Source: Bdellovibrio sp. KM01 (GTDB lineage Bacteria > Bdellovibrionota > Bdellovibrionia > Bdellovibrionales > Bdellovibrionaceae). Taken from it: a stretch of DNA of 64,000 bases. The notes below the pieces were generated by a model. The model had not been told where the DNA came from. It did no database searches and saw only the letters and a list, made by a program, of their open reading frames with translations. Positions 54,412 to 62,971 of the stretch are shown here, in pieces. Within the stretch, counting starts at the first letter, position 1. Each line of letters opens with the position of its first letter. The stretch spans positions 372,001 through 436,000 of the forward strand of contig NZ_CP058348.1 in NCBI RefSeq assembly GCF_013752535.1, read 5' to 3'. The position numbers were made by a program, and so were the translations under genes.

Positions 54412-54440
54412 TTGACGAAGGTTGGGGGTGCTCCTATAAC
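54412..54440 (+). promoter_or_regulatory. Near-consensus sigma-70 promoter for a leaderless gene
   Basis: TTGACG (54412-54417), 17-nt spacer, TATAAC (54435-54440). The expected start site, seven or eight bases on, falls on or next to the ATG at 54448. No Shine-Dalgarno sequence can exist on such an mRNA. Confidence 0.7.
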
Positions 54441-54447
54441 ATGGTTC

Positions 54448-54972
54448 ATGTACCGCTCCTCCCGTCGAATAGCGATATACAAATCTCAGGACCCTCGGCT
54501 GCGAAAACAGTTCGGGGGTGCGCTTTTAAAAAACAGCAATGCCAAAAAAGCGCGACCTATCAGCACCAAACATGCAATGCATGTGGTGTTGTTCTCCCAT
54601 CAAGCCAAGGGCACTTGGTCATTCCGAAACCATAAAAACTGGAAACGCATTTCCGAGATTCTGACGTTGCAGGCGCGACGCTACGGCGTGCAGTTGCGCG
54701 AAGTTGTGAATGGCGGGGATCATCTTCAGCTGGTTTTAAAGTTAAAAAACCGCGAACTTTTTAGTTCTTTTATTAGGGCCATCAGTGGAATCATTGCAAT
54801 GGTGGTAACGGGTGCGGCAAAAACTCGCGCTTTAAAAGATAAGTTCTGGGATTTTCGACCGTGGAGCCGAGTTGTTGCTCTAATTCCTAAATATTCGGTG
54901 CGAGCGGATCAAGCTGTGCAGAAATACTTGGTCGAGGCCAAGATTTTCAATTTTAAAGAGGCGCCAGCTTGA
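54448..54972 (+). CDS. Degenerate Y1-transposase-like protein without HUH motif
   Basis: The 174-aa protein keeps the layout of IS200-like/REP-associated transposases: a basic N-terminus, the first strand HAMHVVLFSHQAKG (about 42-55), a helix with Trp and Arg, then GGDHLQLVLKLK at residues 89-100. In active enzymes this last segment is the HUH motif, as in NNHFHMIV of the 20368 RAYT. Here it reads H92-L-Q94, so one metal-binding His is lost. A later Tyr-containing helix (VQKYLVEAKIF) remains near the C-terminus. The gene is intact and has a strong promoter, so domestication is more likely than decay. It is probably leaderless. Confidence 0.65.
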   Translation: MYRSSRRIAIYKSQDPRLRKQFGGALLKNSNAKKARPISTKHAMHVVLFSHQAKGTWSFRNHKNWKRISEILTLQARRYGVQLREVVNGGDHLQLVLKLKNRELFSSFIRAISGIIAMVVTGAAKTRALKDKFWDFRPWSRVVALIPKYSVRADQAVQKYLVEAKIFNFKEAPA

Positions 54973-55697: not shown

Positions 55698-56269
55698 ATT
55701 TTCGCGAGCATTGATTTAACAAGTTCCACTGGAAGGCCCACGACGTTGTCGAATGGGCCTTCGTATTTTTCGACGAATTTCCCACCCAAGCCCTGAATTC
55801 CATAGGCACCGGCTTTATCCATCGGTTCTCCGGATTCAATATAGGTCCAGATTTCTTGGTCCGTCAGATTCTTGAAAAAAACTTTTGTCGTTTCAATTTG
55901 AGACAGCTCTTTCCCTGTCGCAGAGTCAATGATGCAGACTCCGGTCTGTACATCGTGAGTCTTTCCGGACAAACGTCTTAACATTTGAAAGGCGTCATCC
56001 TTGTCAGCGGGCTTTCCTTGCAGTTGGCCCTCGAAAATCACCTCAGTGTCGGCGGAAATGAGAGTAAACTCCTGTAATTTACTGGACTTTAGGTGAGTGA
56101 ATGCCGCTCTGGCTTTACGTCTGGCGATATCTAAAATCTGCTCCGTTGCATTCAGGTTTTTGTCAGGAATTTCCGATACTTTTACTGATGCTACGTCGAA
56201 TGAAAAACCTGCTTGTTGAAGCAATTGTTTACGGCGTGGAGACTCTGAAGCCAGGATCAATGTTTTCAT
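55694..56269 (-). CDS. maf: Maf-like nucleoside triphosphate pyrophosphatase
   Basis: Maf proteins hydrolyse unusual or canonical NTPs and affect septum formation. The 191-aa length is typical. The first signature ASESPRRKQLLQQAGFSFDV is at residues 7-26. The catalytic-base region ISADTEVIFEGQLQGKPADKDDAFQMLRRLSGKTHDV lies at about 68-104, with D70 and the G-K-P motif. GAYGIQGLGG and the final GLPVELV are also conserved. It is near the division cluster but on its own, divergent from the Tad-like gene. Confidence 0.95.
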   Translation of the reverse strand: MKTLILASESPRRKQLLQQAGFSFDVASVKVSEIPDKNLNATEQILDIARRKARAAFTHLKSSKLQEFTLISADTEVIFEGQLQGKPADKDDAFQMLRRLSGKTHDVQTGVCIIDSATGKELSQIETTKVFFKNLTDQEIWTYIESGEPMDKAGAYGIQGLGGKFVEKYEGPFDNVVGLPVELVKSMLAKI

Positions 56270-56298: not shown

Positions 56299-57207
56299 AT
56301 GGGAAGTGCAGAGTTAATGCTGATTTTGGGTCTGCTCCTAGCAGGAGTAGCGGTCTTCCTATTCGTAAACTCGATCTTTGCCAGCAACAACGATAAGCAA
56401 CAATTGTCCTGGGCTAACAATGACGAGCCAGTTAAATCCAAAAATCCAATTATCAATTTCTCGCGTCCATTAGTGCATCAATTCACTTTGCAACATGCGC
56501 TTAGAATTCGCAGTGAATCTTACCGCAAAAAAGTGCGCAAGTTCATTATGACTTCGGGTCTGTCTCAGGAATTGAACGAGGATGAATTCATCGGCTTACA
56601 GCTCCTATGGGGCGTGATGTTCCCGATATTTTTGTTGATCATGAATTTTTCCCTGCAATTGGAACTGCCACTTGCAGGTTGTATTGGGGTGGGCTTGATA
56701 GGTTTCTATCTGCCGCAAATTCACGCCAAAGGTGAGAAAAAGAAACGTGAGCTTTCGGTTCGTGGTGATCTGCCATTCTTTATCGATCTGTTGGCTTTGT
56801 CAGTGGAAGCGGGTTTGGACTTTTTCTCGGCAATCCAAAAGATCGTGGATAAGGCGCAAGGAACTAAAAGTGTCCTGGCTGATGAGTTCAATATTGTTTT
56901 GAAAGATATAAAAATCGGCTCTTCCAAGTCGCAAGCCCTTAAAGAAATGGGCGAGCGCTTGGATATGAACGAGATTACCAGCTTCGTGGCTGTCCTGATT
57001 GATGCCGAGGCGACGGGGGCAAGCATTTCCCAGGTTTTGAAAGATCAATCAGTGCAAATGCGTTTGGAGCGTTTCGTGCGTGCTGAAAAAGCCGGTGCGC
57101 AAGCGTCTCAGGCAATTTTGATTCCGTTGATGTTATTTATTTTGCCAGCCGTGTTCATTATGGTTTTTGGACCGGTTGCGATTTCATTTATGTATGGACC
57201 TAAATAA
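56299..57207 (+). CDS. tadC: TadC-like type II secretion F-domain membrane protein
   Basis: The 302-aa protein belongs to the T2SSF/TadC family of inner-membrane platform proteins that support Tad/Flp pilus assembly or type II-like export. It has an N-terminal membrane helix (about residues 5-25), two in the middle (about 90-110 and 120-138) and one at the end (ILIPLMLFILPAVFIMVFGP). The cytoplasmic F-domain is visible (DLPFFIDLLALSVEAGLDFFSAIQKI, then MNEITSFVAVLIDAEATGASISQVL). No ATPase or pilin gene accompanies it here, as the upstream neighbour is the divergent maf gene. It heads an operon with DUF192 and FHA genes. Confidence 0.88.
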   Translation: MGSAELMLILGLLLAGVAVFLFVNSIFASNNDKQQLSWANNDEPVKSKNPIINFSRPLVHQFTLQHALRIRSESYRKKVRKFIMTSGLSQELNEDEFIGLQLLWGVMFPIFLLIMNFSLQLELPLAGCIGVGLIGFYLPQIHAKGEKKKRELSVRGDLPFFIDLLALSVEAGLDFFSAIQKIVDKAQGTKSVLADEFNIVLKDIKIGSSKSQALKEMGERLDMNEITSFVAVLIDAEATGASISQVLKDQSVQMRLERFVRAEKAGAQASQAILIPLMLFILPAVFIMVFGPVAISFMYGPK

Positions 57208-57557
57208 TGATGAAGAAGCTTGAGAACTCGACAACTAAAACCACTTTGATCCCGAATCTCGAGGTTGCAGATGATATCCGCACTCGTGGAGTGGGTCTTT
57301 TGGGTCGTAGTTCACTGGCAGAAGATCATGCTTTGTGGATCTTAAGATGTAATAGCATCCATACGTTTTTCATGAAGTTCGCAATTGATTGTGTATTTGT
57401 AGATAAGAATTTGAAAGTGAAAGCTGTCTATAAAGATGTGAAACCCTGGAGGCTCTTGCTTCCAGTATGGGGTGCCAGATCTGTATTTGAGATGGCTTCA
57501 GGTGTAAGCAGCAAGTTGAACATCAGAGTGGGAGATCAGCTGAATGTGGGCGCTTAG
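57207..57557 (+). CDS. DUF192 family protein
   Basis: The 116-aa protein matches the DUF192 core: DIRTRGVGLLGRSSLAEDHALWILRCNSIHTFFMKFAIDCVFVDKNLKVKAVYKDVKPWRL (about residues 22-82), then ARSVFEMASG. DUF192 members are small beta-sheet proteins, usually exported, of unknown role. This one lacks a signal peptide. Its ATG overlaps the tadC stop by one base (TAATG), and its end overlaps the next FHA gene by 14 nt, so translation of all three is coupled. The link of DUF192 to Tad/FHA genes recurs in deltaproteobacteria-like genomes. Confidence 0.9.
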   Translation: MMKKLENSTTKTTLIPNLEVADDIRTRGVGLLGRSSLAEDHALWILRCNSIHTFFMKFAIDCVFVDKNLKVKAVYKDVKPWRLLLPVWGARSVFEMASGVSSKLNIRVGDQLNVGA

Positions 57558-59169
57558 AATCTTGTCCGGCCCTCAAGCCGGCGGCATTTTAGAGCTAAAA
57601 ATGGGGAGAAACCTAGTCGGTCGCTCTCCGCATTGTGATATTAAAATCACAAGCCCTGGCGTGTCCAAAGAACACAGCGAGATCGTTGTTTACAGTGATA
57701 AGATTGTCGTAACTGATTTGAAATCCAGCAACGGAACTTATTTAAACGGTGTGCGCATGCAGACTGGCTTGATGCGTTTAGGTGATAAGCTGGGCATTCA
57801 CGATGTCTTGGTTGATATCATTCCAGCTCCCGAAAAAAGAGCGCAAGCTCCAGTGATGCAGCAGCCAGGTTACGGTATTCCGCAGGGAATGCCAGTGCCA
57901 CAAGGAATGCCGCAACCGATGGGCATGCCTCAGCCAATGGGGGCGGGTCCTGCGGGTCCCGCTCCAGAAGCAGCGCCGGCTTACAGTCCCGGTGGTTTGA
58001 AAGCAGTTTGGGAAAGATTCCTGGAATATTTAGACCGCGTGGCTTTGCCGGGCGTTTATAAAATTCCGACTTATCTGGAATTCCGCATGGTTCTTTTGGG
58101 CTTTGTGGTGCTCTTTATTTTTGTCACGACATTGCTGGCGATGATTCCAATGGTGCAAATCACTCGAGCAAGTATCATCACTGAAAGTAAACGTCGTGCC
58201 GCTTCGATTGCCAGAACTTTGGCGACGATCAATCAATCTGCTCTTTTGCAAAATAGTTATTCTTCTTTGACAACAAATCAGGCGGAAGCAGAGGACGGTG
58301 TTAAGCAGGTTCTCATTGTGCAGCAGTCAGATGGTATGATCCTGGCTCCAGCCACTCGTGCAGGGACGACTCCTGATTTGCCATTCGTGCATCAGGCCCG
58401 TCGTGAAATGCGCCCGGAATCTGTCGAAGTAGACTCGAGCACGATTGGTGCAAGTTTCCCAATCGGTTTATTTGATCCAAATACCGGAGAACAATCGGTG
58501 AAGGCTCATGCGATTGTCCTTTATGATATTGGCAGCATGGCTTTTGATGATGGTCGCGCGATCAGTTTATTCATGCAGACGCTGGTGATTGCAACATTGG
58601 TGGGGTTAATCTTGTACTTCTTTATGTACAAACTGGTTGAGTATCCACTGGTGACATTGAATCAACAGCTCGATACCGCCATGAGAGAGAAAACAGATAA
58701 TACCAGCGTGGACTTCATGTTCCCGCCACTTCAGGCATTGATTGGGAATATCAATAGTCTGCTGACACGTTATATTCACGGTGAGGGTGCCGGGGCTGAA
58801 GGTGGAATGGGTAGCTTCGTCAATAAAGATGGCGAAGCTGAAAATTTGGTTCAATTGATTGGTTTCCCATCTATTGCGATTTCTAAAGACGGTCGTATTA
58901 TGGCGGGAAGCTCTTCCTTTGGACAAGTGGCCCGTACTGAAGTTGCGCAACTGATCGGACAGCAGTACCAAGCGATTCCGGATGTGGCTCTTCAGCAGAA
59001 TATCGACAGTCTTATGCAAAAGACCCGCGACAATGCCCGCGTGATTCATACGGATCAGTTGGAGTTCAACGGTCACCCATGTATTTTAAGTTGTCAGGGA
59101 ATGTCTTCACAGCCAAATGATATCGATTACTTTGTAATCACGATCTCTCCGGCAGAGGGAGGATCCTAA
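57544..59169 (+). CDS. FHA-domain membrane protein with periplasmic sensor-like domain
   Basis: The 541-aa protein begins with an FHA domain at about residues 15-95 that carries the phosphothreonine-binding motifs GRS, SKEHSEI and NGTYLNG. A Pro/Met/Gln-rich linker is at about 103-150. TM1 is at about 178-200 (EFRMVLLGFVVLFIFVTTLLA). A domain of about 140 residues follows, then TM2 at about 343-362 (SLFMQTLVIATLVGLILYFFM), and a C-terminal domain that reads like PAS/DUF with FPSIAISKDGRIMAGSS. The plan is that of a sensor that links a phospho-signal inside to the periplasm. It overlaps the DUF192 gene by 14 nt and the next FHA gene by one base. Confidence 0.85.
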   Translation: MWALRILSGPQAGGILELKMGRNLVGRSPHCDIKITSPGVSKEHSEIVVYSDKIVVTDLKSSNGTYLNGVRMQTGLMRLGDKLGIHDVLVDIIPAPEKRAQAPVMQQPGYGIPQGMPVPQGMPQPMGMPQPMGAGPAGPAPEAAPAYSPGGLKAVWERFLEYLDRVALPGVYKIPTYLEFRMVLLGFVVLFIFVTTLLAMIPMVQITRASIITESKRRAASIARTLATINQSALLQNSYSSLTTNQAEAEDGVKQVLIVQQSDGMILAPATRAGTTPDLPFVHQARREMRPESVEVDSSTIGASFPIGLFDPNTGEQSVKAHAIVLYDIGSMAFDDGRAISLFMQTLVIATLVGLILYFFMYKLVEYPLVTLNQQLDTAMREKTDNTSVDFMFPPLQALIGNINSLLTRYIHGEGAGAEGGMGSFVNKDGEAENLVQLIGFPSIAISKDGRIMAGSSSFGQVARTEVAQLIGQQYQAIPDVALQQNIDSLMQKTRDNARVIHTDQLEFNGHPCILSCQGMSSQPNDIDYFVITISPAEGGS

Positions 59170-60272
59170 TGGGAGCAGCCTCTAAGGTGAAAGACGCTTT
59201 GAAGTTTGATATTGAAGTGGTGAAAGGTCCGCACACGGGTCTTCGTCTTTCATTTGCAAGCGGCGCCGCCACTATGGGGCGTGGTCCAGAAAATGATATC
59301 GTTTTGGCGAATGATCCACGTATCAGTCGTCAGCACGCTGAAATCCGTCAGCGTGGAAATGAATTCCTGATCGTCAATTTAAGTCAGAAAAACTTTGTCA
59401 TGCTCAATGGCGAAAGTATTCAGTCCGAGATTTTACATAAAGGCTCGGTGATTCAAATTGGTGATTCTGAAATTCGCTTCACTCCAGAAGCTGTTGCCAT
59501 AGAACCCGTGATGCCGGTTATGCCAGCAGCTCCGCCAGTGCCAACTCCGTCAGCGTCGGTATTAAAACCAGTTGCGCCGACAGGTTTGCCTCAAATGCCA
59601 GCGGCAGGAATGCCAAGTATGCCTCCAGGTGCGGTAAGACCGCAAATGCCGATGGGCCACCCACAAGGAGTGGGCTATCAGCAACAAGCGCCTCGTCCAG
59701 CACCACGTCCGGCAAGCAGTGGTGGTCTGCTTTCAAATCCGAAGACGCGTTTTTATGCGATCATCGTGGTTTTAGGATTGATCGGTTGGTATCTGATGAC
59801 GCCAGCTAAAAAAGGCAAAGACCAAAATGCCTTCCGTACGTCTGCGATCAGTATGCAGGACGTGGCCGAGGCGGAAAAGCGCACACAGGAATTGATGAAT
59901 ATTAAAAAGGAAAAGTACGACTCCGTTCAATACAAGCGAGCGCAGGAAAACTTTATCCGTGGATTCCGTGATTTCCAACAGGGCCAATACGCACGTGCGC
60001 GTGAGGCGTTCCAAGTGGTATTAAATCTGGATCCAGAAAATGAACTGGCAAAACGTTATTACCATCTTTCGAAAATCAAATTCGATGAGTTGGTAAAATT
60101 CAATTTGATCCAGGGCAGTCGTTATCGTGAAAAGAAAAACTGGCGCATGTGTCAGTCGAACTATTCTAATGTGATTACAATGTTGCAGAACCGCAGAGAT
60201 GATCCAAGTTATAAAGAAGCGAAGCAATTTTACGAGGAATGTACTTTAAATCTGGAAGGAGGACGACTCTAA
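59169..60272 (+). CDS. FHA-domain membrane protein with TPR-like C-terminus
   Basis: The 367-aa protein has an N-terminal FHA domain (about residues 20-105) with GRGPENDIVL and ISRQHAEI. The NG-T loop is varied (KNFVMLNGE), so phosphopeptide binding may be weaker. A low-complexity linker of P, A, M, Q and G follows (about 115-185), then one TM (FYAIIVVLGLIGWYLM, about 196-211). The C-terminal 150 residues include a TPR-type unit (REAFQVVLNLDPENELAKRYY, about 277-297). The start overlaps the previous stop by one base (TAATG). It probably assembles with the flanking FHA proteins at the inner membrane. Confidence 0.85.
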   Translation: MGAASKVKDALKFDIEVVKGPHTGLRLSFASGAATMGRGPENDIVLANDPRISRQHAEIRQRGNEFLIVNLSQKNFVMLNGESIQSEILHKGSVIQIGDSEIRFTPEAVAIEPVMPVMPAAPPVPTPSASVLKPVAPTGLPQMPAAGMPSMPPGAVRPQMPMGHPQGVGYQQQAPRPAPRPASSGGLLSNPKTRFYAIIVVLGLIGWYLMTPAKKGKDQNAFRTSAISMQDVAEAEKRTQELMNIKKEKYDSVQYKRAQENFIRGFRDFQQGQYARAREAFQVVLNLDPENELAKRYYHLSKIKFDELVKFNLIQGSRYREKKNWRMCQSNYSNVITMLQNRRDDPSYKEAKQFYEECTLNLEGGRL

Positions 60273-60273
60273 T

Positions 60274-62292
60274 ATGGCACATCTTATAGTTCGTCTTCGT
60301 GGAAAGACAGTATATAACATGCCTCTGGAAGAGGGGCGTTCGTATGTGGCAGGCCGTAAAGAGGACTGTGACATCGTTCTGCAACCTGAAAAAGGCATTT
60401 CCCGTGAGCACTTTAAAATAGTCTCTGACAATGGCCAGTGGACATTGCAAGTGATCTCTCGTTACGGCGAAGTGATGGTGAATGGCGAACCGACTCAGCA
60501 AGTGGCTTTGGACCACGGTTTTACTTTTACTATTGCGCCTTATGAATTTGATTTCCTGATGTCATCCGCAACTGCGCAACCTACGCCATCAATGGATGCT
60601 CCATCGCATCCCGAAGGCAGTTACTTGCCTGCAGTTCAAAGTGGCACGTCTGGTGGCGAGGAAAAAACTATTGTGGGTGCGGCTCCGACAGCGGCCTATA
60701 TTAAAATTGTTGATTCTAACAGTGATGCTAAAGAACTGATCCGTTTGGATGAGGGGGATTCCTGGATTGCAGGACGAGATCCGTCTTGTCATATCCAGAT
60801 TCGTGACCAACGCGTCAGCCGTCGCCAATTTGAACTTCGTCGCAATGGCAATCAATACCAAATTATTGATTTGGGCAGTGTGAATGGAACGTTGGTTAAC
60901 GGTAACCCGATTTCATCCACAGATTTGACAAATATCCGTAGTGGCGATGCCATCACGGTTTTGGATAACTATTTATTCTTTGAATTGCACGATGCTCACT
61001 TCCAAAGTCGTTTGGACATGGTAAAGGTGGCTCCGCCAAATCCATTGGTGCAAATGTCGCACAATCCGGTGCCGGCAGAGTACGATCAGCAAGGCTACGG
61101 TATTGCGCCTTATCAGCAACAAGGTGGCGTGCCGATGCAGTATCAGGGCTACGGTCAAATGCCAGGTCCTGTGGCGCCAGCTCCAGAAGTAAAACCTAAA
61201 TTCGATTTCCAAAAGCACCGTCCAAAATTAATGATCGGTGCGGTGGCGTTGTTGGTTGTCGTTTACCTGGTTAAGGGTGGCGACAAAGATACTGCACCCG
61301 TTGGTGCGCCGGGCACCGTGGCGGCTCCGGGGTCTCCGCAGGAAGTATTTAATAAATTGAAGCCTGAACAACAGTCATTGATCCGTCAGCGCTATAAAGA
61401 TGCCAAAAATCTTTATATGCAAGGTAAGTATCAATTGGCTCAGGATGAAATCGTTAAGATTCATGAATTGGTTCCTGATTATGAAGACACCAAAGAGATT
61501 CAACGCCTGGCTAAGGAGGCGATCTATTTGGAGCAGGAAAAAATTCGTATTCAGCAAATCGAAGCTGCCAAAGCCGAGGCTGAGCAAAAAATCCTGGCTC
61601 AAACGGCCATCTGTCAGAAAAAGATCAATCCAAATATCACCATGGATGAGATGGAGAATTGCTTAACATCCGTTTTGCAATTCAATCCGGATCACCCGAA
61701 AATTTTGGAATTGAAATCTCAAGTGGAAGCTTTGACCACCGCTCGTGACGTTAAAAAAGCAGCCAATGCTGAATATGCGGCAAGAGTGGCGCGTCTAAAA
61801 GCAATCTATGACAAGGCACAAGCTCTCCATAAAGTAGGTAAAAAACCTTTGGACATCATTGATGCCTACACCAAAGTGACTAGCTCAAGTCTACCAGATC
61901 CAAATGGTTATAAAGGAATGGCCGGACGAAGTATTGCTTCGGTTCGTAACCAAATGAACCAAAAGATCAAAGGCAGTCTGGAAAAAGCTGATAAGTTCTA
62001 CCAGAATGGAAATCTTAAAGATGCCATCGGTGCTTTAAGAGAAGCGAAAGCTATTGATCCAGAAAATCCAGAGGTACCACCAAGAATCGAAAAGATGGTG
62101 TTGGAACTTCGTAAGCAGATGATGGCTTTGTATCAAGAAGGTATTCTTGAAGAAAGCTTTGGTAACGTCGATGGTGGCGAATCCAAAGCTGGTGCCAAAG
62201 AGAAATGGAAGAAAATCCTGGAGCTCGATATTTCTGACGGCGAGTATTATAAGAAAGCCTATATCAAGCTTAAGAAATACGGAGCTATGTAA
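60274..62292 (+). CDS. Double-FHA membrane protein with TPR repeats
   Basis: The 672-aa protein has two FHA domains. The first is at about residues 15-95 (AGRKEDCDIVL, ISREHFKI, MVNGEP). The second is at about 160-235 (AGRDPSCHIQI, VSRRQFEL, NGTLVNGNP), where the canonical NG-T-x-x-N-G is intact. A Gln/Tyr/Pro-rich linker (about 265-310) leads to one TM (KLMIGAVALLVVVYLVK, about 314-330). The long C-terminus holds several TPR-like and coiled-coil segments (YQLAQDEIVKIHELVPDY; LKDAIGALREAKAIDPENPEV). It is 1 nt after the prior FHA gene, within the same transcript. It may act as a scaffold. Confidence 0.85.
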   Translation: MAHLIVRLRGKTVYNMPLEEGRSYVAGRKEDCDIVLQPEKGISREHFKIVSDNGQWTLQVISRYGEVMVNGEPTQQVALDHGFTFTIAPYEFDFLMSSATAQPTPSMDAPSHPEGSYLPAVQSGTSGGEEKTIVGAAPTAAYIKIVDSNSDAKELIRLDEGDSWIAGRDPSCHIQIRDQRVSRRQFELRRNGNQYQIIDLGSVNGTLVNGNPISSTDLTNIRSGDAITVLDNYLFFELHDAHFQSRLDMVKVAPPNPLVQMSHNPVPAEYDQQGYGIAPYQQQGGVPMQYQGYGQMPGPVAPAPEVKPKFDFQKHRPKLMIGAVALLVVVYLVKGGDKDTAPVGAPGTVAAPGSPQEVFNKLKPEQQSLIRQRYKDAKNLYMQGKYQLAQDEIVKIHELVPDYEDTKEIQRLAKEAIYLEQEKIRIQQIEAAKAEAEQKILAQTAICQKKINPNITMDEMENCLTSVLQFNPDHPKILELKSQVEALTTARDVKKAANAEYAARVARLKAIYDKAQALHKVGKKPLDIIDAYTKVTSSSLPDPNGYKGMAGRSIASVRNQMNQKIKGSLEKADKFYQNGNLKDAIGALREAKAIDPENPEVPPRIEKMVLELRKQMMALYQEGILEESFGNVDGGESKAGAKEKWKKILELDISDGEYYKKAYIKLKKYGAM

Positions 62293-62293
62293 A

Positions 62294-62971
62294 ATGAAAC
62301 TTCAGGAACGCTCTTATAGCAGCAAGATCATGCGCCCTAAGCCTCAGATCCATGTGGAAGAGGACGGGTCATTGATCGTTGTTGTGACGGCTTGGGGGCA
62401 ACCTGAGCACGGGGAGCGAGCATTAACTGAAGTTGTGAAATACGTCAGTGCCGCCAAGGCAGACGTCGAAGTGACTTCGCCATTTGAATTCCTAACTTGT
62501 ATAAGTGATGAAGCGAACTATGTGCGCACAGCTTTGATGATCGCCAATGATGCCCTTTATAGAGGTGAAAATCGTAAAGAATACGCCTCTGGAGTGGAAG
62601 TCCTGGCATTGTTTAGACGAGGCACGCAAGTTGCCTGGGCCCAAGTGGGAGCTCCCAGCATTTTTGTACAAAGACAGAATCAACGGGTGCAGCCTTTAAG
62701 CGTCGCAAGTGATTTGGCATCGGAACTTCGCGATGGTCACAGCCTGCCGCCACTTCCAGCTCAGCTTTTAGGATTGGATCCAACGGTCAATATCCAGACG
62801 GGACACACTCACGTGAATGAGGGTGATAAGTTGATCTTGCTTGCCGGAACCTCTGTGGCGACTGCGTTGTGGGGTCTTCAATCCTATGAAACTGATTTGA
62901 ATCTTATTACTCAGTCGATGGTTCAAGAAGAACCCGAATTGCCATTCTGGCTGGGGTTGATTGCTGTTTAA
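62294..62971 (+). CDS. PP2C-like protein without the metal-binding aspartates
   Basis: The start ATG (62294) is 1 nt after the FHA gene stop. The in-frame extension to 62147 lies inside that gene and was rejected. The 225-aa product has strand order and sequence features of PPM phosphatases: VVVTAWGQPEHGERALTEVV (where ADGMGG is usual), YASGVEVLALFRRGTQVAWAQVGAPSIFVQR (where GTT...GDSR is usual), LPPLPAQLLGLD and GDKLILLAGTSVATALW (where SDGL is usual). The catalytic Asp residues are replaced at each site. It is likely a pseudo-phosphatase that binds FHA-linked phosphoproteins. The fold call is inference and would need structure prediction. Confidence 0.55.
   Translation: MKLQERSYSSKIMRPKPQIHVEEDGSLIVVVTAWGQPEHGERALTEVVKYVSAAKADVEVTSPFEFLTCISDEANYVRTALMIANDALYRGENRKEYASGVEVLALFRRGTQVAWAQVGAPSIFVQRQNQRVQPLSVASDLASELRDGHSLPPLPAQLLGLDPTVNIQTGHTHVNEGDKLILLAGTSVATALWGLQSYETDLNLITQSMVQEEPELPFWLGLIAV

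Follow-up and report, generated by a model that had tools for sequence, protein, structure and literature searches.

A six-gene TadC, FHA and PP2C-fold cassette of Bdellovibrio sp. KM01 as a probable detached half of its Tad pilus machine

The Bd0470-Bd0475 operon of Bdellovibrio bacteriovorus HD100, from another species of the same genus, has the same six genes in the same order as the cassette described here. Bd0470 is annotated as tadC, and mutants in this gene fail to attach, while a transposon mutant in Bd0474 attaches and does not kill (PMC6561027). The FHA, DUF192 and PP2C genes of the operon are treated as hypothetical in published work, and the papers found give no description of the PP2C relation, of the domain make-up of FHA1 or of the operon's promoter.

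A second related system is Kil of Myxococcus xanthus, which, like the system considered here, is Tad-like, has a single ATPase, is encoded in two clusters and has FHA proteins beside its platform genes (PMC8460266). The Kil authors list the Bdellovibrionales among carriers of Kil-like systems and propose a contact cascade through FHA proteins (PMC8460266). The two systems also differ. DUF192 and PP2C genes were not seen beside the Myxococcus TadC, and the Kil ATPase, KilF, has an N-terminal FHA domain, whereas the ATPase of the KM01 genome is a TadZ-like-TadA fusion, with no FHA match at its Tad ATPase locus. In type VI secretion, the PpkA/PppA/Fha1 module likewise uses an FHA reader and a PP2C phosphatase to steer an envelope machine. 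The cassette departs from that module in its lack of a cluster kinase, its predicted dead phosphatase, its membrane-anchored readers and its Tad base.

The cassette and its conservation

The window, the whole stretch of DNA analysed, is 64,000 nucleotides long. The six ORFs of the cassette (Table 1) are joined by junctions of -1, -14, -1, +1 and +1 nt, in agreement with the initial annotation, which had described six genes that overlap or abut within 14 nt. Its count of four FHA domains in three proteins is matched both by Pfam, which finds FHA in three cassette proteins with two domains in FHA3, and by a genome scan, which places in the cassette four of the nine FHA domains of the whole genome. 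It was also right that the cassette contains no Tad ATPase, pilin or kinase. Of the transmembrane and TPR parts that it had claimed, the former stand, given that hydropathy indicates two segments in FHA1 and one each in FHA2 (195-213) and FHA3 (319-337); the TPR parts of FHA2 and FHA3 are matches below Pfam curated cut-offs (TPR_2 at 2.5e-5 for FHA2). Neither a signal peptide nor a transmembrane segment was seen in the DUF192 protein, and NCBIfam gave no above-cut-off match for any cassette protein.

Table 1. Positions in the window and supporting features of the cassette genes and the candidate promoter
Feature	Position	Strand	Basis or domain layout
Candidate FliA (sigma-28) type promoter, TCAGG-N16-CCGATA	56152..56178	+	Inside divergent maf ORF
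TadC, inner-membrane platform protein	56299..57207	+	Pfam T2SSF 2.4e-16; orthologue of HD100 Bd0470 and Myxococcus KilH
DUF192 (COG1430) protein	57207..57557	+	Pfam DUF192 1.4e-19
FHA1 (Bd0472 orthologue)	57544..59169	+	FHA, linker, TM, extracytoplasmic alpha/beta sensor domain, TM, HAMP-like helices, PAS
FHA2 (Bd0473 orthologue)	59169..60272	+	Cytoplasmic FHA, TM, TPR-like tail; Pfam FHA 2.7e-16
FHA3 (Bd0474 orthologue)	60274..62292	+	FHA, FHA, TM, TPR-like extracytoplasmic tail; Pfam and genome scan
Predicted PP2C-fold pseudophosphatase (Bd0475 orthologue)	62294..62971	+	AF2 model, Foldseek, metal-site motifs

In 55 of 60 Bdellovibrionota loci, the genes follow the order TadC-DUF192-FHA1-FHA2-FHA3-PP2C. 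Therefore, the layout is not due to chance, and the claim that the genes belong together is supported across the phylum. Through FHA1, the order is kept in 59/60 of these loci, and DUF192 adjoins TadC in 59/60. In one genome (L090), the segment retrieved carries TadC without the other cassette genes. A TadC match is present in 144/144 genomes of the phylum. For one order-level relative (G029), TadA is present and TadC and FHA3 are absent. True loss was rejected in this case and an assembly gap is suggested, because maf is missing there too.

Orthology to Bd0470-Bd0475 rests on the locus of genome G073, whose identity with HD100 is itself inferred, and which carries the same six genes in the same order at 67-89% identity to the cassette (67% for FHA3 against Bd0474). 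The published lengths of Bd0473, Bd0474 and Bd0475 (386, 674 and 228 aa) agree with those of the corresponding G073 proteins.

Relation to the Tad locus

The genome has a single Tad locus, about 300 kb from the cassette, with TadZ-TadA, TadB, RcpA, RcpC and Flp. The TadA ATPase, the secretin RcpA/CpaC and RcpC/CpaB are all present there, together with an ORF read as Flp1-like, and no TadC was found. In HD100, TadB is Bd0110 and TadZ-TadA is Bd0111. The cassette TadC is the only Tad-type platform (T2SSF) gene in the genome besides the TadB of the Tad locus, such that the TadB/TadC platform pair of a Tad system is present with one member in each place. The prepilin peptidase TadV is reported to be absent from Bdellovibrio genomes (Avidan et al., PMC5430801).

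Comparison with relatives bears on the same point. The cassette TadC matches the Myxococcus TadC at 230 bits and TadB at 66 bits, and TadB and TadC are each reciprocal best matches of the adjacent TadB and TadC of Myxococcus. Myxococcus, Hyalangium and Corallococcus have the order RcpC-TadB-TadC-FHA-FHA, in which the second FHA protein matches FHA3 through its TPR part; as in Kil, the FHA proteins of the cassette are encoded with a Tad platform gene, with four FHA domains following TadC. A profile search of 17 genomes, mostly Myxococcota, found no FHA1-type sensor, and matches to FHA1 were rejected as exact counterparts, being only HAMP/PAS matches in other proteins. The cassette and the tad genes are contiguous in 13 of 20 extended loci, from 13 other genomes of the phylum, where the cassette is followed by RcpC-RcpA-TadZA-TadB; 11 of these run through TadB.

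Because the sole Tad locus lacks TadC, the cassette holds the sole other platform gene, the order is conserved and the two halves are contiguous in 13 genomes, the cassette is probably the detached half of the only Tad pilus machine that the cell has, which is of type IVb/IVc and Kil-like, with phospho-gating by FHA domains as its putative control. The initial annotation had instead read the cassette as a membrane-spanning, phosphorylation-controlled machine in its own right, which borrows the Tad platform and would need neither Tad ATPase nor pilin. Such a machine would fit the lack of Tad ATPase, pilin and kinase in the cassette and the roughly 300 kb between the loci in this genome, but no TadC is encoded in the Tad locus itself, 13 genomes carry both halves joined, TadB and TadC occur together with FHA genes in Myxococcus, and tadC mutants fail in predation (PMC6561027). 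The stand-alone machine was rejected on the platform count and the contiguity in relatives, and it is considered highly improbable.

FHA domains and the PP2C-fold protein

FHA1 was modelled by AF2 with a pLDDT of 86.7, and among PDB structures it comes closest to the sensor kinase WalK, in a match that spans 388 columns but has a low TM-score. No Pfam domain was found in the C-terminal part of the window sequence, where relatives match PAS (12/25 FHA1 family members), and no kinase domain was seen in FHA1. The protein thus models as a kinase-less transmembrane sensor.

The residues predicted to bind phosphothreonine are conserved in FHA1 (R27, S41, H44 and N63), where they are kept in 58-59 of 59 sequences. 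Arg and Ser are kept in 59/59 FHA2 sequences, and in FHA3b Arg is kept in 56/57 and Ser in 57/57. The binding-loop set of Arg, Ser, His and Asn is full in FHA1 and mostly so in FHA2, while FHA3b has Arg, Ser and Asn with Gln at the His site. FHA3a does not have the set, given that the conserved Asn is missing in all loci; therefore, some of the FHA domains may have a structural role. No ORF with kinase motifs was found in or near the 60 loci, and three Pkinase genes lie elsewhere in the genome. The lack of a nearby kinase counts against control of the machine by phosphorylation, which is nonetheless plausible as a hypothesis.

The last protein of the cassette has a PP2C fold, modelled by AF2 with a pLDDT of 92.9. 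Its best PDB matches are tPphA (Foldseek E 4e-14), PstP and PppA of the type VI system, and its Pfam PP2C_2 match of 7e-5 is below the cut-off for that family. The four metal-site Asp motifs are all missing from the window protein and from each of the 22 Bdellovibrionales rows scored, and all four are present in 12 of 21 outgroup rows. Fold and motifs together bear out the earlier description of a PP2C-like protein without catalytic Asp. The dN/dS of the gene is low, as judged from the nearest pairs alone, given that distant pairs are saturated. As judged by its residues, the protein is a pseudophosphatase in the Bdellovibrionales lineage, in which the catalytic residues are lost.

An appreciable possibility, although on balance a doubtful one, is that the FHA domains are structural adaptors of the Tad base, similar to the FHA-like cytoplasmic domain of YscD/SctD, with no phosphorylation involved and the PP2C fold as scaffold. 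Several observations would suit a scaffold: each of the three FHA proteins has a match to the Pfam YscD_cpl model as well, the Asn is gone from FHA3a, no kinase is encoded nearby and the PP2C protein is catalytically dead across the whole order. However, the pocket Arg, Ser and Asn are near-invariant in FHA1, FHA2 and FHA3b throughout the phylum, which a pure scaffold does not need, and in 12/21 outgroup sequences a catalytically intact PP2C is encoded next to these same FHA genes.

Promoter, predation and a proposed mechanism

The candidate promoter upstream of the cassette shares its spacing with TCAAG-N16-CCGATA, the sequence that precedes flp1 in the tad operon, and the published attack-phase consensus is TTAAG-N16-CCGATA (PMC3627812). 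Under the candidate promoter, the synonymous choice in maf codons 31-33 is frozen among 23 Bdellovibrionales sequences (GTA 16/16, TCG 23/23, GAA 23/23). The candidate FliA-type promoter of the cassette resembles that of the tad operon. FliA-type promoters are common to many attack-phase genes, which leaves room for co-transcription in attack phase as all that keeps the genes together, with the FHA and PP2C proteins serving gliding, type IVa pili or similar. Bd0075, which is reported to interact with FHA3 (PMC12034629), does not belong to the Tad proteins, and DUF192 is not known to be connected with pili, as would be expected in that case. This explanation is unlikely, however, given that the order is kept across the phylum and adjoins Tad genes where the loci are unsplit, and that in Myxococcota too the FHA genes come right after TadC.

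The link to prey contact that had been suggested for the cassette is supported independently by the genetics of Bd0470 and Bd0474, its orthologues in HD100 (PMC6561027). The transposon phenotypes in HD100 may include polar effects. A two-hybrid link connects Bd0474 (FHA3) to Bd0075, and a contact between FHA2 and the PP2C protein has been predicted (PMC12034629).

In the proposed mechanism, TadC would complete the TadB/TadC inner-membrane platform of the Tad machine. FHA1 may be a membrane receptor that senses an envelope or prey-contact signal via its extracytoplasmic and PAS domains, while FHA2 and FHA3 would keep their phosphothreonine readers, which face the cytoplasm, anchored to the base, with TPR-like arms that reach into the periplasm. 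A Ser/Thr kinase encoded elsewhere would write the mark, and FHA binding would gate whether the Tad base assembles or fires. Elsewhere in the phylum, the PP2C protein would erase the mark; in the Bdellovibrionales it cannot, and is probably a binding or scaffold subunit. The DUF192 protein has no place in this model.

A more specific version is offered tentatively, as rather less probable than not: the cassette could be the switch by which prey contact triggers a Tad weapon, in which FHA1, a sensor receptor with no kinase of its own, would relay an envelope signal to TadC and the ATPase by contacts between phosphothreonine and FHA domains. In the Bdellovibrionales, the phosphatase that erases the mark would have become a dead reader subunit, and the switch would perhaps be one-way, matching irreversible invasion. 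The Kil authors suggest that touching prey probably switches that machine on through FHA proteins that had not been characterised (PMC8460266), and the conserved parts can now be named: one FHA protein with the shape of a receptor, two FHA readers with a single membrane span each, and a PP2C-fold protein whose catalytic site many outgroups retain but the Bdellovibrio order has lost. The PP2C catalytic loss in the Bdellovibrionales, the conservation of FHA residues, the FHA1 sensor model and the candidate promoter inside maf are new here. Descriptions of the machine usually cover only the bd0108-bd0119 locus, yet it would be encoded in two places with matching promoters. Therefore, the second operon should be included in work on the Tad pilus in predation.

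A TadC gene apart from the other tad genes

Re-reading of the window confirmed the six ORFs, gene order and overlaps that the initial annotation had claimed, and its family labels were borne out: T2SSF/TadC for the first gene, DUF192 for the second, FHA for the next three (four FHA domains in all) and PP2C-like for the last. Its reading of the cassette as a machine that borrows the Tad platform is altered by the rest of the genome (3.96 Mb in a single contig, with the window at bases 372001-436000).

Six T2SSF matches occur genome-wide. Four fall in two proteins with two matches each, each protein adjoining its own T2SSE-family ATPase; judged by position, these are the type IVa pilus and type II secretion platforms. 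The remaining matches are one in the window and one in the Tad locus at 127 kb, which encodes TadB, a 735-aa TadZ-TadA fusion, RcpA, RcpC, TadE-like proteins and a Flp pilin, and at which no TadC was found. Given that there is no other Tad-type T2SSF gene, the window TadC is left as the sole candidate for the platform's second subunit. Against a Myxococcus genome, it scores 230 bits to TadC and 66 to the adjacent TadB, whereas the 127 kb gene shows the reverse preference for the same pair, 130 against 25. The Tad ATPase carries an N-terminal TadZ/MinD-like domain, in place of which an FHA domain is reported for Myxococcus KilF.

Features in and around the cassette, and the Tad ATPase (window positions unless stated)
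Feature	Position	Strand	Remark
IS200-like transposase match	54412-54972		Y1_Tnp, barely above cut-off; about 1.3 kb upstream of cassette
Promoter-like element TCAGG-N16-CCGATA	56152-56178 / 56171-56179	+	upstream of TadC, inside divergent maf; frozen maf codons
DUF192 gene	57207-57557	+	
FHA1	57544-59169	+	
FHA2	59169-60272	+	
FHA3	60274-62292	+	domains FHA3a and FHA3b
PP2C-like	62294-62971	+	
Tad ATPase	L021:16052-18259		fetched locus; genome 128-130 kb, 735 aa

The Tad operon has an equivalent of the promoter-like element, TCAAG-N16-CCGATA, directly 5' of flp1. The attack-phase FliA consensus is TTAAG-N16-CCGATA (PMC3627812), and control of the tad operon by FliA has been demonstrated (PMC5430801). 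In 23 Bdellovibrionales maf sequences, the three codons that the -10 element overlaps show no synonymous variation (GTA 16/16, TCG 23/23, GAA 23/23), while other conserved Maf serines use three or four codons; CCGATA is found at the corresponding position in 22 of 24 fetched loci. On these observations, a functional element at this site is well supported; it would probably be a FliA promoter.

Conservation and contiguity

A TadC match was found in 144/144 Bdellovibrionota genomes, the one in G029 being weak and possibly to TadB. The C-terminal part of FHA3 is present in 109 of the 144, mostly within a few kb of TadC and on the same strand among the matches listed. The proposed unity of the cassette held in the neighborhood survey across the phylum, with the six genes together in the order TadC-DUF192-FHA1-FHA2-FHA3-PP2C on one strand in 55 of 60 fully read loci. 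Four loci have no recognizable PP2C, in two of which the third FHA gene fits the FHA2 model best, and one has TadC alone. The DUF192 gene lies between TadC and FHA1 in 59/60 loci; this family is not known to act in pili.

Twenty loci from outside Bdellovibrionales were extended to read the flanking genes. In 13 of these, RcpC and RcpA come next after the cassette, and beyond them the ATPase and usually TadB. The cassette and the hit/tad locus therefore belong to a single gene cluster. It is divided in Bdellovibrionales and in the family of genome G008, and the contiguous arrangement is presumably ancestral. In G029, of the same order, TadA is present and TadC, FHA3 and maf were not found, most likely due to an assembly gap in the draft genome.

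An RcpC-TadB-TadC-FHA-FHA run occurs in Myxococcus, Hyalangium and Corallococcus, and its second FHA protein aligns with FHA3 via the TM and TPR part. The run agrees with published cluster 2 of Kil, the Tad-like predation system of Myxococcus xanthus; the same work already proposed that Bdellovibrionales have Kil-like systems and that FHA proteins act in signaling (PMC8460266).

FHA proteins and the PP2C-like protein

In FHA1, FHA2 and FHA3b, the Arg, Ser and Asn that bind phosphothreonine are near-invariant (57-59 sequences), and FHA3a is the sole FHA domain that lacks the Asn throughout. The FHA1 model runs from the FHA domain through a TM segment, an extracytoplasmic alpha/beta domain carried by a long helix and a second TM segment to HAMP-like helices and PAS; PAS models match 12/25 FHA1 relatives, and the extracytoplasmic domain may be cache-like by our reading of its topology. 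Over its whole length, FHA1 matches the sensor kinase WalK best, although domain arrangement keeps the TM-score low. No output kinase domain was found in FHA1, and none of the 60 loci has an ORF with kinase motifs; the genome carries three Ser/Thr kinase genes at other sites.

Structure prediction gives the last cassette protein a confident PP2C fold, closest to tPphA, PstP and T6SS PppA. Motifs were scored in 43 aligned family members, 21 outside Bdellovibrionales and 22 within, window included. Outside, all four metal-site motifs are present in 12/21, partly lost in 8/21 and absent in 1/21; within, they are absent in 22/22. The partial-only losses of Asp motifs (L074, L085, L068, L077, L089, L091, L092, L062) apparently fall in several lineages. 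Bdellovibrionales form a single, strongly supported clade in the TadC tree; overall, PP2C must have changed between intact and not intact at least five times. In the nearest pairs, the PP2C-like gene has low dN/dS, with dS near-saturated, indicating that the catalytically dead protein is under purifying selection. As a working interpretation, an active eraser may have turned into a binding subunit in Bdellovibrionales.

The cassette in predation

The orthologous operon of B. bacteriovorus HD100 would be Bd0470-Bd0475, as G073, the genome taken as HD100, keeps the gene order and has proteins of matching length at 67-89% identity. Transposon mutants of Bd0470 (tadC) lose attachment, killing and rounding of prey, but those of Bd0474 keep attachment and lose killing and prey rounding (PMC6561027). 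A two-hybrid assay shows binding of Bd0474 to Bd0075, and a contact between Bd0473 and Bd0475 is predicted (PMC12034629). In host-independent strains, bd0470 is down-regulated together with tad genes (PMC3818213). Mentions of these loci in the open-access papers searched were not found beyond these three papers and PMC8460266.

The cassette is ordinary in being part of a predation apparatus already known and published. Its interest is that the survey yields a conserved sensory-phospho module whose phosphatase has lost its catalytic residues across the Bdellovibrio order, and that contact triggering becomes testable one gene at a time.
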